Under the pieces are notes generated by a model, which worked only from the letters and a program-made list of their open reading frames with translations, had not been told where the DNA came from and did not search any database. A program made the position numbers and the translations under genes. Positions 20,771 to 34,925 of a stretch of 48,588 nucleotides of DNA are shown in pieces. The stretch lies in assembly GCF_029946185.1 (NCBI RefSeq), contig NZ_JAQSEA010000118.1, forward strand, positions 1-48,588, read 5' to 3'. The DNA comes from Prosthecobacter sp. (GTDB lineage: Bacteria; Verrucomicrobiota; Verrucomicrobiia; Verrucomicrobiales; Verrucomicrobiaceae). Numbering within the stretch: position 1 is the stretch's first letter; every line of letters starts with the position of its first letter.

Positions 20771-21745
20771 TCACAAACCGAGGTCGCCTTCGGCCATGAC
20801 GGTGTGTTTGGAGGCTTGGCGGAGTGACTCGGGTAGAAGGAAAAGGTGGCAGACGTGCTGGGTGCGGCGCAGGAGGGCGGGAGTGGGGGACCAACTGGAG
20901 TCGTCAGGGAAGGTGGCGGTGGTTATGAGGGAGGCACCGCCGGGAAAGAGGCCGGGTTCTTTGACGAGGAGGCCGGTGAGGGCGTGCAGCTCGGTCCGGT
21001 CCTCCTGGGTGGTGAAGCTTTCCAGAACATCCCAACTGCGCAGGCCACGCACAAGCCGGTGGGTGACGAGGAGGTAGGAACTGAGTGTTCCTGAGGCATC
21101 GACTAGGCCGAGAAAGTGATGCGGGCGCACGGGGGAACGGCAGAACCACCGCAGGTAGTCGGGGGTGATCCATTTCTCGATGCGGTCCGAGCGCTGGTAG
21201 GGGCGTGAGATGGCGGTGACTTCGGCGGGATCTGTCACCACGCGCTTGTGCGTGGGCAGGGAGGGCCACCAGGAGTGTCCGCGCAGGTGGGAGGCGGGTC
21301 CGGCGGGGAAGTAGTGGCGGGTGACTGTCTGCTCCGCGCGTGCGCCGAGCTTGAGAAGCGCGGTCTGGACGCGGGGGCTGGGGGTTGTGTGAGTGATGAT
21401 GCGGTGGGAGGCCACCTCGCGCTGCTGCAGAAAGACGAGGGCTGCGGCTTTGGGGAACTGCTTGTCCACGCAGAAGGTGGTGGAGTACAGCGCCTGAAAG
21501 GGTTGCTCCTGCCAGGCATAGAGGGCGGGAATGGAACCGCCGTAAGCGACTAAACGCCCATCGGCATGCACCCAGCGACCGCGTTCTTCGTTGTCTGCGG
21601 CGGCGGGGTTTTCATCCCACCAGAAGCGCAGGCGCTGCTCCCAGCCGGGGCCCTTCTGAGGTGGGATGTGCCGCCTCAAAAACTCCGCCAGCTCCGCCCG
21701 TGCCGTGGGGGTATCGGGGTAGGGGCTGATGTCGAGTTTGAGCAT
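20771..21745 (-). CDS. GNAT-like acyltransferase domain protein, function unknown
   Basis: A 324-residue cytoplasmic protein that I do not recognise as a named gene. The layout suggests two GNAT-like halves: an N-terminal part with FLRRHIPPQKGPGWEQRLRF and a strand-rich core (ADGRLVAYGGSIPA, then YSTTFCVDKQFPKAAALVFLQQ), and a C-terminal part with HHFLGLVDASGTLSSYLLV. These resemble putative acetyltransferases found near exopolysaccharide genes, but no acetyl-CoA loop is clearly readable. ATG 21745 was chosen over an upstream start that adds 10 residues. It is divergent from the AraC regulator, with a 510-bp gap that holds the MITE-like element. Confidence 0.6.
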   Translation of the reverse strand: MLKLDISPYPDTPTARAELAEFLRRHIPPQKGPGWEQRLRFWWDENPAAADNEERGRWVHADGRLVAYGGSIPALYAWQEQPFQALYSTTFCVDKQFPKAAALVFLQQREVASHRIITHTTPSPRVQTALLKLGARAEQTVTRHYFPAGPASHLRGHSWWPSLPTHKRVVTDPAEVTAISRPYQRSDRIEKWITPDYLRWFCRSPVRPHHFLGLVDASGTLSSYLLVTHRLVRGLRSWDVLESFTTQEDRTELHALTGLLVKEPGLFPGGASLITTATFPDDSSWSPTPALLRRTQHVCHLFLLPESLRQASKHTVMAEGDLGL

Positions 21746-21904
21746 GAGTGTTCGCTGAGAACTCCTAAGTTCCACTATTAGACCCAGTCCTCAAGCGAGT
21801 TCCCTGATTATGGATATTGCAATTAATGACATGCTTGAATGGCACTTGATTAAGACTGGGCGTCGAGGAAATCATCCATTCACTGACGAAGCCGAAAAGT
21901 GTCA

Positions 21905-21930
21905 CGGAGCGCGGGACTTTAGTCCGCAGC
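21905..21930. repeat. Inner palindromic module A of the MITE-like element
   Basis: CGGAGCGCGG is followed by a hairpin GCGG(G)ACT/AGTCCGC. Its design and most of its bases recur in inverted orientation at 22031-22055, about 100 bp away. Bases in the stem differ in a compensating way (ACT/AGT here, AAT/ATT there). Confidence 0.6.
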
Positions 21931-22030
21931 AGGTCGTCCGCGTGGGATGTGTGATGGCTCGCACTGAATGCCGCAAACACGGTGATGTCGGGTGTCGAGA
22001 AAGCAGCATGTCAAAGCGGGGCAGGTTTGT

Positions 22031-22063
22031 GCAGCGGAATAAATTCCGCGCTCCGAGGAGCGC
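22031..22063. repeat. Inner palindromic module B of the MITE-like element
   Basis: GCGGAAT (22034-22040) pairs with ATTCCGC (22043-22049), and the overlapping GCGCTCC (22048-22054) pairs with GGAGCGC (22057-22063). Bases 22031-22055 are an inverted, diverged copy of module A, making the element roughly symmetrical inside as well as at its ends. Confidence 0.6.
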
Positions 22064-22255
22064 TGCGCACAAGCGGTGAGTTTCACGATCTACGCCTTAA
22101 TCAAGTGTCATTCATGACATGCTTTGGGTTGCCGAGGCGGGGCGCAGAAAATCATCGGACTCAGCATCTACTGGTAACCATTAGGCTAAAATTGCGGTCA
22201 TTCACGACGGGAGATACCGTATGGGACGACAATATCGCAAATTTTGCAGCAGGGC

Positions 22256-23113
22256 ATGGTTGCAACTGTGAAAACAAACCACGAACGCGCCATGAACCAC
22301 ACTCCTGCAGCCCGCACTACTCCGCGCCAGCGTTTCATTCTGAACCTCTCGGAGAGTGAACTCTTCCAGCACTACCAGAAGGCCTTCCACACCCTGACCT
22401 GCCTACCGCTGAGCCTAGAAGCGACTCAGGATGACTCTCCCATCGACAGCATCATCACTCGCAAGGGGGTGGCCGGTGTGGTGGAGACCCAAGTTCCGGT
22501 ACGCGTGGGCAAAAACACCATCGCCATCATGTTGACCGGCGGTGTGCGCCTTCAGCCTGCCAATGCCGATACCTTCGCCCCCGTGGCCAAGGCTCTGCTG
22601 GATGAAGACCGCACCGCCGCAGAAATCCGTGCTGCGAAGGTGCACTTCGAACACGCGCCGGTCATGGAGCCAGCTCGCTATGATGCCGCGCTGGCCATCC
22701 TGCAGTCCTTTGCCCTCCAATTGGGGGACAGCGCGCACCGCTTGTTGTTTGCCACCGCTACGCATGAGCCCGAGGCGGTGCGCAATGCCAAGAGCTTCAT
22801 CCATACCCATCTGGCGGAGCCCATGTCACTCGAAGCCGTTGCCAGCGCGGTGAACGTGAGTCCTTTCCACTTCTGCAAGCTTTTCAAGCGCTCCACGGGG
22901 CTGACGTTCACGGACTTCGTGAACCGCGCCCGCGTGGAAAAGGCGAAGCGAATGCTGATGAAGCCCGCAGCCCGCATCACTGAAGTGGCCTACGACGTGG
23001 GTTTCCAGAGCCTATCGCACTTTAACCGCAGCTTTCGCCGCATCGCCGATGAATCCCCCACGGAATTTCGCAGCCGCATGAAACACTGCGTCACGGCCCA
23101 GATGGCCGCTTAA
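22256..23113 (+). CDS. AraC-family transcriptional regulator
   Basis: About 285 residues. The last 100 form the AraC double helix-turn-helix: SLEAVASAVNVSPFHFCKLFKR is the first unit and ITEVAYDVGFQSLSHFNRSFRR the second, ending SPTEFR. The N-terminal 150 residues resemble a PocR-type sensor (KGVAGVVETQVPVRVGKNTIAIMLTGGV), though the usual cysteine before the glycine is not seen. The start is uncertain: ATG 22256, GTG 22268 and ATG 22292 are all possible and none has a good ribosome site. It stands alone between the mobile element and a strong terminator, so its targets are not evident. The neighbouring divergent gene is one candidate. Confidence 0.88.
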   Translation: MVATVKTNHERAMNHTPAARTTPRQRFILNLSESELFQHYQKAFHTLTCLPLSLEATQDDSPIDSIITRKGVAGVVETQVPVRVGKNTIAIMLTGGVRLQPANADTFAPVAKALLDEDRTAAEIRAAKVHFEHAPVMEPARYDAALAILQSFALQLGDSAHRLLFATATHEPEAVRNAKSFIHTHLAEPMSLEAVASAVNVSPFHFCKLFKRSTGLTFTDFVNRARVEKAKRMLMKPAARITEVAYDVGFQSLSHFNRSFRRIADESPTEFRSRMKHCVTAQMAA

Positions 23114-33026: not shown

Positions 33027-34925
33027 TCAAGAACGAGGTTCGGCTTTTTTCGTGCCGGGGCCGCGGGTGCGTTCGGACTTGATGGTAACGGGGGCGAGGC
33101 GGATGGTCTCAACCTGGACCACCACGGGTGGAGAAAGGTTGGATGCATCCTGTGCGGCTACGATTGCAGCCGCTGAGTGTGCTTTACGCATGGAGGCGAT
33201 TTTGGCCTCCAGTTCAGCAAGCTCACGGCGGGCGGCCTCGATCTGACCGGGAAGTGCCCCGTTTGTTGTCGCGTCGGTTTGGGAGGCGTCTTCGTGGTGG
33301 GGCTGGCGACGAGACGGGGCGATTTGCGATCCGCCTTGGGAACTGTCGGACTGTGCGTCGCGGTAGCGCTGTTCGACAGCGGCGAGGCGTTTTCTGCCAT
33401 CGAAAAGCTGCTGTTTCGTTGAGGCAAGATCCTCGTTCAGCTGTTCCAATTCAGCGCGTTTGGCGTCGGTTTCGACGTAGATGTTGGTTTCGGCAGCAAG
33501 TGAGGCGTTGCGTGCTGCGAATTCTGCATTGCGCGCAGCCAGTTTCTTTTCGCATGAGGCGAGCTCTTCCTGCTGACGCCGGAGCGAAGCTTCGGCGGCC
33601 GCGCAACGATGTTCCAATTCAGCACGGTTGGTGTCGGTTTCGACGGCAAGTGAGGCGTTGCGTGCGGTGAGCTCTGCATTGAGCGCTGCCAGTTTCTTTT
33701 CGTATGAGGCGAGCTCTTCTTGGTGACGCTGGAGCGAAGTTTCGGCGGTCGCGCAACGCTGTTCCAATTCTGTGCGGTTGGCGTCGGTTTCGACGGCAAG
33801 TGCGGAGTTGCTTGCGGCGAGTTCTGCATTGCGCGCGGCCAGTTTCTTTTCGCATGAGGCGAGCTCCTCCTGCTGATGCTGGAGCGAAGCTTCGGCGGTC
33901 GCAGCACGCTGCTCCAACTTCATGAGGAGAGATTCGAGATCTCTGATGGAGGCCTCATCACTCTGCTGTTTGGCGCTGAGCGCCGCGCTGGAGGTGCTGA
34001 GCGAGAGATGTTTTGCCTCCTCCTCAACAATGCGCTTTTCATGTTCAATGATCTGCTGGCGCAGGGAGTTTAGAAGTGCCTCGTCCTGTTCGCACTCATC
34101 ACGCACCTGTTTAAGACGGGCGTCGGTCTGCTCTTTTTGAGCGGCCAGATTTTCGATCTGCTGCTGAGCTTCGGCAGCGGTGGCGGTGAGACGCTGGACC
34201 TCAGTGGACTTTTCGTAATGCTGGGTATTGAGGCGTTCGAGGGCGGTGGTTTTATCCGCGTGCTGGCTGGTCAGGGAATTGATAGCTTCCAGCCATTCGC
34301 GGTGTGCGGTCTCGGCCTGCTGCACAGCAGCCTGCGCGGGGGCGAGCTTTTCCTCCTCGGCGGTCAGTGATTCCACGCGGGACAGATGCAGGGAGCGTTC
34401 TTTTTCAGCACGCTTCTCCCACTCCCGCAGCTCTTTTTCAGCGGCAGCGACCTCGGCTTTGAGCCGTGATTTCTCTGCTTCCAATTGGGCCGTGGCTTCC
34501 ACATGGGCGTTGTCGGGAGGTGCCGATGCAGGGGGTGCCGGAGGAGCAAGAGCTTCAGAAACGGGAACTTTAACCGTCGAATTGGAGACTGGAGGCGCTG
34601 CGGGTGTGGCTTTTGCGGGGGGGGGGCTTGTGGCCGGATGTTCAAGATCGAGTGTGCCTACGAGCGGGCCAAAGGCGATGGTGTCGCCATGGAGCAGGGT
34701 GCAGCTGAGCTGGCGCTCACCATTGACGAAAGTGCCTGCTGTGGATTTCAGGTCAAAAACCTGAAGGCTGCCGTCGGCGTTTTCGACGATTTCAGCATGG
34801 TGCGAAGAAATGCGCTCGTCATCGACCACAATGTCATTGTCCTCGTCACGTCCGAGGGTGATGTGTTCCTTGAGAGGAACCACCACTTCTTGTCCGTCTT
34901 CGAGAACGAAAGTGAGTTTGGCCAT
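33027..34925 (-). CDS. FHA domain and long coiled-coil protein (paralogue 1)
   Basis: A 632-residue cytoplasmic protein. Residues 1-95 form an FHA domain, which binds phosphothreonine: GR at 25-26, SSHH at 40-43 and NG at 68-69. A Pro/Ala-rich linker (residues 98-140) follows, coded in part by a run of ten C. Residues about 145-530 are almost continuous coiled coil, including three 50-residue repeats (RCATAETSLQRHQEELASYE and similar). The C-terminus is basic (RTRGPGTKKAEPRS). The N-terminal domain is nearly the same as in the next gene, so the two arose by duplication. A scaffold that docks on phosphorylated partners is plausible; I know of no described function. Confidence 0.85.
   Translation of the reverse strand: MAKLTFVLEDGQEVVVPLKEHITLGRDEDNDIVVDDERISSHHAEIVENADGSLQVFDLKSTAGTFVNGERQLSCTLLHGDTIAFGPLVGTLDLEHPATSPPPAKATPAAPPVSNSTVKVPVSEALAPPAPPASAPPDNAHVEATAQLEAEKSRLKAEVAAAEKELREWEKRAEKERSLHLSRVESLTAEEEKLAPAQAAVQQAETAHREWLEAINSLTSQHADKTTALERLNTQHYEKSTEVQRLTATAAEAQQQIENLAAQKEQTDARLKQVRDECEQDEALLNSLRQQIIEHEKRIVEEEAKHLSLSTSSAALSAKQQSDEASIRDLESLLMKLEQRAATAEASLQHQQEELASCEKKLAARNAELAASNSALAVETDANRTELEQRCATAETSLQRHQEELASYEKKLAALNAELTARNASLAVETDTNRAELEHRCAAAEASLRRQQEELASCEKKLAARNAEFAARNASLAAETNIYVETDAKRAELEQLNEDLASTKQQLFDGRKRLAAVEQRYRDAQSDSSQGGSQIAPSRRQPHHEDASQTDATTNGALPGQIEAARRELAELEAKIASMRKAHSAAAIVAAQDASNLSPPVVVQVETIRLAPVTIKSERTRGPGTKKAEPRS
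33445..33915 (-). repeat. Three 150-bp tandem repeats inside the FHA gene
   Basis: The DNA repeats with a 150-bp period: copies begin near GCAACGATGTTCC (about 33602) and GCAACGCTGTTCC (about 33752), plus a third copy with a short insertion at the low-coordinate end. Each encodes 50 residues of coiled coil. Copy number could vary between strains. Confidence 0.7.
34617..34626 (-). repeat. Ten-base C tract in the coding strand of the FHA gene
   Basis: Ten consecutive G on the plus strand, read as C in the gene, encode the end of Ser100 and Pro101-Pro103, just after the FHA domain. It is the longest mononucleotide run I noticed in the window and is a potential slippage site. Confidence 0.85.

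Follow-up and report, generated by a model that had tools for sequence, protein, structure and literature searches.

The window analyzed here is a stretch of 48,588 nucleotides from Prosthecobacter sp. and represents one contig of a 6.19-Mb draft genome (317 contigs, 95.9% complete). Between two divergent genes it contains a short stretch with inverted ends that the original prediction attributed to a transposition event, which raises the question of what kind of repeat this is and how DNA lacking a transposase could have reached its site. Direct reading of the sequence confirms the predicted outline to the base. The element comprises 277 bp (21837–22113), is bounded by 18-bp terminal inverted repeats that pair at 17 of 18 positions (GAATGGCACTTGATTAAG at 21837–21854, plus strand, and CTTAATCAAGTGTCATTC at 22096–22113, minus strand), and is flanked without a gap by the exact 11-bp duplication ATGACATGCTT (21826–21836 and 22114–22124). 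Only short reading frames overlap it, the longest of 125 amino acids, and none is a transposase, as had been claimed. Its interior features two GGAG-tagged REP-like palindromes in opposite orientation, recognized by sequence pattern (GGAGCGCGGGACTTTAGTCCGC at 21906–21927, plus strand, and GGAGCGCGGAATTTATTCCGC on the minus strand at 22034–22054), and a TCGT block common among the ends of the family lies just inside the right terminal repeat.

Within the window, the end motif (≤3 mismatches) is found only at the two ends of the element, whereas 0.02 occurrences are expected in shuffles. A phage origin was rejected, as blastn gave no match in the phage collection at E 1e-5. Elsewhere in the window, positions 33482–33922 hold ∼2.9 tandem copies of a 150-bp unit.

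If the stretch is a mobile element, further copies with the same ends should exist, and this is indeed the case. A DNA search of the host genome with the element returned 41 matching places, many of them partial or interior; besides the window copy, seven matches span query bases 1–277 at 84–91% identity, and the host subfamily measures ∼277–288 bp. Sites within three mismatches of the 18-bp end number 84 in the host (versus 3 for the reversed control pattern) and fall into two main variants, TTGATTAAG, which is that of the window, and TCGGTTAAG. Among the fetched loci, 26 paired elements shorter than 700 bp come from the host (one of them, L007, spans a run of N), and nine of these possess an exact 11-bp repeat, so that the element is both multi-copy and associated with target duplications.

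The ends also extend beyond the host. Counting the host, 23 of the 48 genomes in its genus carry them, with zero control hits. An order-wide scan for exact matches to a broader end pattern was positive in 41 of 386 genomes, representing 14 of 50 genera, again including the host and with no control hits. Most sites listed in that scan fall within the genus of the host, and for many of the other genomes just one site was recorded. The exact 18-mer of the window was found in 23 stretches of GTDB species genomes, a scan that may leave out the host's own record; 22 are titled Verrucomicrobia or subgroups thereof and one Gammaproteobacteria. The latter (L215) contains a 198-bp paired element with flanks matching at 10 of 11 positions and may represent a misbinned contig or a transfer.

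To what extent the 11-bp duplication is a property of the family was assessed on 56 distinct paired elements from the host and relatives, all at loci selected because they contain such ends or portions of the element, after removal of pairs with <20 bp of flank. An exact 11-bp repeat flanks 15 of the 56, a 12-bp repeat none, and the remaining 41 match at 2–10 positions, which suggests that many are old, recombined, or mispaired. Because the flanks of different copies resemble one another, each left flank was also compared with the right flank of every other element, and this mismatched pairing gave 11 of 11 matches in 1.23% of comparisons, corresponding to ∼0.7 of 56 elements. The chance argument of the original prediction thus survives as an excess (15 observed versus ∼0.7 expected) but not in its magnitude, since unrelated flanks agree far more often than 1 in 4 million. 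Together with the shuffle expectation and the counts of ends in host and genus, this excess rules out a chance inverted repeat.

The choice of target appears to lean toward a near-palindrome. In the 15 exact duplications, a mean of 2.7 of 5 position pairs are self-complementary, compared with 1.25 expected for uniform bases (no significance test was applied), and the commonest form is close to ATGCCWGGCAT, as judged from a base table made symmetrical by adding the reverse complements. The target of the window itself fits this form in part only. Three of the 15 exact targets (both L055 elements and L136) read GGGTCAGNGTG or its complement, and all three belong to elements with TGARTTAAG-type ends. 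On host contig C38 (L055/L090), elements of 82 and 106 bp with TGARTTAAG ends are flanked by the exact duplications CACACTGACCC and GGGTCAGGGTG, and the insertion sequences (IS) L136 and L135 of sister species, which have similar TGARTTAAG-like ends, show GGGTCAGTGTG and GGGTCAGAGTG at the left. Given these alike flanks, the TGARTTAAG end lineage seems to have a target of its own.

At two places in the host, neighboring elements are separated tail to head by a single 11-bp site, and coordinates indicate a third such arrangement in G058. Repeated insertion into a duplicated target would produce such pairs. Immediately outside some 11-bp repeats (L054, L096, L218, and L009) we observed short stubs of GAATGGCAT, of its complement, or of a variant, which could be remnants of a second element lost via the GGCA common to end and target. 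Another copy (L002, host contig C104) lies directly beside an array of 2.7 copies with a 63-bp period (L002:1319–1482), which looks somewhat like a short CRISPR array.

A parent IS had been postulated from the ends and the duplication, and a full-length candidate is present in the sister species G060. There, an IS of 1,608 bp (L166/L152) possesses two ends that are identical to the left end of the window element at 18 of 18 positions, is flanked on both sides by the exact 11-bp duplication TGGACTGTCCA, and contains a single transposase gene encoding 491 amino acids. The window element hence shares its ends with an autonomous IS, as expected of a MITE. Six IS-length pairs have two readable flanks, of which L152, L136, and L143 show an exact 11-bp repeat and L154 a match at 10 of 11 positions; the flanks of L135, the second end of which has four mismatches, and of L170 do not match. 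A seventh IS-length element (L167) stops at a contig edge, and an eighth, in G034, has one recognized end only.

The 491-residue transposase matches the NCBIfam model NF033592 (transpos_IS4_1) with 206.8 bits at a cut-off of 115. InsG, the transposase of Escherichia coli IS4, matches the same model. Members of the IS4 family are described by the hallmarks D(60–110)D(100–150)E and Y(2)R(3)E(6)K and, for subgroup IS4, by ends of the form -AATR--------WTW----, a length of 1400–1650 bp, and duplications of 10–13 bp (PMC2266710). Six transposases of the group exhibit D75D114–116E (D75D116E in the partner) and Y2R3E6K, and L166 contains a single gene. At the positions listed for the subgroup, the ends read GAATG........TTA; the IS measure 1,540–1,624 bp, and the duplication is 11 bp long. 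The partner IS thus shows the tested hallmarks of the IS4 family and, by ends, size, and duplication, of subgroup IS4, the transposase itself being placed by NF033592. In the plasmid collection, the partner transposase matched 568 records, all <60% identical (12 of the 568 among the matches listed).

Comparison with IS4 of E. coli K-12 shows a related but distinct system. The K-12 element starts with TAATGCCAGTCAGTTAAG (TAATGCC...), which agrees with the genus variant GAATGGCACTCAGTTAAG at 15 of 18 positions (counted by eye). Both IS4 and the partner IS encode a DDE transposase with YREK motif in a single gene, and the duplication amounts to approximately one helix turn in both cases (12 bp at the K-12 copy, 11 bp here). 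However, over 454 aligned columns the partner transposase and InsG share only 23% identity, and the window element lacks a transposase and has an unrelated interior.

The ends of the family share a second feature beyond the 18-bp repeat. Despite differing interiors, positions 27–30 hold a conserved TCGT block in a set of 104 ends from elements outside 1,400–1,700 bp, nearly all of them MITEs. The motif [AT]TCG occurs at positions 21–33 in 70 of these 104 ends and in 4 of 8 IS ends, whereas the reversed motif is found in 5 of 104 and 2 of 8, respectively; many of the 104-end elements are related, so that the count does not reflect independent events. This conservation suggests that the TCGT block is a second contact of the transposase.

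The ends, the length of the duplication, the leaning of the targets, the multi-copy spread, the autonomous partners with the same ends, and the absence of one host copy (L004) from its site in relatives can be read from the sequences, and it is almost certain in our judgment that the window stretch is a transposase-less MITE of the IS4 type with ends recognized by a DDE transposase made elsewhere. The putative recognition sites of this enzyme would be the end pieces, consisting of the 18-bp inverted repeat and the looser TCGT block at positions 27–30. The transposase would bind both ends, cut the element out in a presumed cut-and-paste reaction, and join it to the target by cuts staggered by 11 bp, with a preference for near-palindromes like ATGCCWGGCAT. 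Gap repair would then yield the exact 11-bp duplication. The enzyme would act in trans, and the partner IS or a near relative probably moved the window copy.

A comparable division of labor is known from the Bacillus cereus group, where MIC231 cassettes have IS4-family ends, are moved in trans, and carry genes. As in IS231/MIC231 (subgroup IS231), non-autonomous DNA is here bounded by IS4-family ends, with mobilization in trans as the probable route, whereas the window element carries no genes. The ends differ as well: those of subgroup IS231 are described as starting with CAT (PMC2266710), those found here with GAAT.

The partner transposase has no match in the host genome at E 0.001 (317-contig draft). 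The enzyme may have been lost, may be unassembled, or may come from elsewhere. Several matches to the element sit at host contig ends, and a collapsed IS could therefore be missing from the assembly. Across the genus, the partner transposase is matched in 21 of 48 genomes, in many of them by fragments only. The only DDE_Tnp_1 match of the host, on contig C126, was rejected as parent because its frame is broken and it is a different gene; positions 1–6000 of C126, which hold a run of N, contain no end of the three variants searched (≤4 mismatches). The same contig features tandem units of AAAAAGATGCCAAC, interrupted by a run of N and ending in the full target-like palindrome ATGCCAGGCAT (L086:2720–3040). 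This array follows the broken IS4-like transposase and precedes a RAYT-like reading frame recognized by eye.

We also considered that the MITE was moved by a different IS4-type transposase, from another lineage or on an unassembled contig, and not by a relative of the L166 IS. The lack of a matching transposase in the host draft speaks for this view, as does the variety of ends across IS or MITEs (TTGATTAAG, TCGGTTAAG, TCAGTTAAG, TCATTTAAG, and TGAATTAAG). Among the IS-length elements examined, however, an exact match to the left end of the window element was limited to the L166 IS, and we consider a different enzyme unlikely, although it would fit within mobilization by an IS4-type transposase. 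A simple internal deletion of any of the three IS compared does not account for the MITE, because nothing convincing is common to them inside the ends.

The joined flanks of host copy L004 (contig C226) match unbroken stretches in two sister species, G013 (606 bases for 600, 79% identity) and G058 (622 bases for 600, 77%), and both alignments show no element and one stretch opposite the L004 target. As the target retains only 6 of 11 host bases in G013 and 5 of 11 in G058 (counted by eye), the insertion point is placed by the alignment of the flanks and not by an identical single target. In G012, G021, G028, G030, and G023, both L004 flanks lie close together without the element, and the target plus ∼100 bases to its left are also missing; the alignment of L004-like sites covered four of these five genomes. 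The flanks of another copy, L088, are on different contigs in those relatives that have both; for L088 and the window copy alike, relatives have the left flank at another place or not at all.

A site without the element is thus indicated for L004 alone, with a diverged target, and the window locus itself offers no such comparison, since its left gene stands beside the AraC gene in none of 29 relative loci. This left gene (20771–21775, minus strand) is transcribed away from the element. Its description as acyltransferase-like in the original prediction is unsupported, as no Pfam or NCBIfam model matches at E 0.001. On the right, an AraC-type regulator (22244–23113, plus strand; likely start ATG 22292) is also transcribed away from the element. 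Excision of the element and one repeat would leave 228 bases between the two genes if translation starts at GTG 21775 and ATG 22292. The AraC gene is conserved in relatives, in the closest together with ∼130 bases before the start. This upstream block (22161–22291, plus strand), conserved in the nearest relatives, begins ∼36 bp to the right of the duplication, so that the insertion left it intact. Alignments start at window positions 22160–22169 in the eight relatives shown, and the sequence farther left mostly differs; three of the eight (L179, L180, and L182) have in common a different left neighbor of the AraC gene, as judged by eye. Given the position between two divergent genes and the intact AraC block, no effect of the element on either gene needs to be assumed.

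The same setting could be read in another way, namely as a fixed repeat that has decayed and serves structurally as a terminator, mRNA hairpin, or boundary of divergent genes, with flanking repeats that are due to chance or selection. Indeed, the 277-bp element has a strong predicted single-strand fold (z −4.6) and includes a terminator-like hairpin at 22048–22063 on the minus strand (two such hairpins were found versus 0.5 expected), and its place between divergent genes would suit such a role. Yet any DNA with inverted ends folds well, a simple scan found no promoter-like site in the element, and a structural repeat explains neither the exact 11-bp duplication, nor the copies at unrelated loci, nor the fact that relatives lack a sister copy at the corresponding site. 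A purely structural origin is thus extremely improbable. An Rfam search of 21500–22600 at E 1 matched no known RNA family.

Nine of 50 paired elements shorter than 700 bp, all in the host, belong to the interior class of the window, and all nine carry the two inverted GGAG-tagged palindromes (pattern with ≤3 substitutions). In the host, the palindrome occurs 44 times with ≤1 mismatch, part of these within MITE copies, whereas the reversed control yields 0. When the entire element was used as the query, 18 of 56 genomes (counting the host) yielded matches, which outside the host are confined almost entirely to the two palindrome regions. Palindromes were recovered at 37 of 39 re-read loci, some of which overlap, often as inverted pairs spaced 133–137 bp apart and also at 84–87, 121, 176, and 182 bp. 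At 33 of these 37 loci no family end is found within 260 bp (≤4 mismatches); three have a weak end and one (L275) a strong end. As the pairs mostly lack family ends, the pair represents a repeat found more widely in the genus, which the MITE has taken in. Four tandem REP-like doublets with a period of ∼202 bp were seen on host contig C135 (L271:161–923), without MITE ends within 260 bp.

With an inverted pair of tagged palindromes that is repeated in the genome, the interior looks like a REP doublet or REPIN. As with REPINs and BIMEs, the palindromes occur singly, in pairs, and in tandem arrays elsewhere (PMC2817692, PMC3116915), and GTAG-tagged REP-type repeats are reported from one verrucomicrobium, O. 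terrae (PMC3733652). Unlike described REPINs, the pair is enclosed here by DDE-transposon ends with an 11-bp duplication. Its spacing also differs, being 133–137 bp in many copies and 84–87, 121 or more in others, compared with 71 bp given for the GI type of Pseudomonas fluorescens. Another comparable system is the BrickBuilt MITE of Porphyromonas gingivalis, likewise a bacterial MITE enclosing repeats of another class; BrickBuilt, however, has IS5-like ends, a minisatellite interior, and no constant duplication length (PMC4596501).

These palindromes raise the alternative that the whole stretch is a REPIN- or BIME-type repeat spread by a RAYT, a tyrosine transposase acting on single strands, with the outer inverted and direct repeats being secondary. 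In favor of this reading, the two inverted GGAG-tagged palindromes are arranged as in published REP doublets, copies lacking the outer ends exist in both relatives and host, and contig C126 contains a RAYT-like frame. However, the outer ends also bound elements with quite different interiors as well as full IS4-type IS. Moreover, 11-bp duplications are not known from IS200/IS605-type movement. Spread of the window stretch by a RAYT is accordingly very improbable, if marginally less so than a structural origin.

Under mobilization by an IS4-type transposase, the REP-like pair is cargo of the subfamily of the window, and this pair is found outside the MITE as well. It is possible, though doubtful, that an IS4-type MITE took up an entire REP doublet, which a double-strand DDE transposase unrelated to RAYTs now spreads in a host with ∼26 paired elements and no recognizable partner transposase. 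If so, a repeat usually assumed to depend on RAYTs for its movement would be dispersed by a DDE transposase. A second interior class, different from that of the window, has 29 members in host and relatives, and the short palindrome GCCCTGAAAGGGC (≤1 mismatch) is present in 19 of 56 elements. As this second large class also holds a short palindrome, we might guess that the MITE ends repeatedly pick up palindromes.

In sum, the transposition event claimed for this locus is borne out by copies with the same ends, by the partner IS, and by the exact duplications. The further claim that parent and family are undescribed applies in part: the parent belongs to the well-known IS4 family, whereas no description of the MITE family was found in the literature searched, ISfinder not being covered. 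Within that literature the family is new as a family, and the kind of system is already known, so that the general picture of transposition is unchanged. What the analysis adds is a link between a MITE family of uncultured Verrucomicrobiaceae and its probable autonomous partner, with evidence at the level of single bases (ends that are identical, a duplication of 11 bp in both, and relatives with sites that lack the element). The family also provides a natural case of one class of small repeats riding inside another, together with a testable target preference, and it may underlie some of the breaks between contigs in these drafts.
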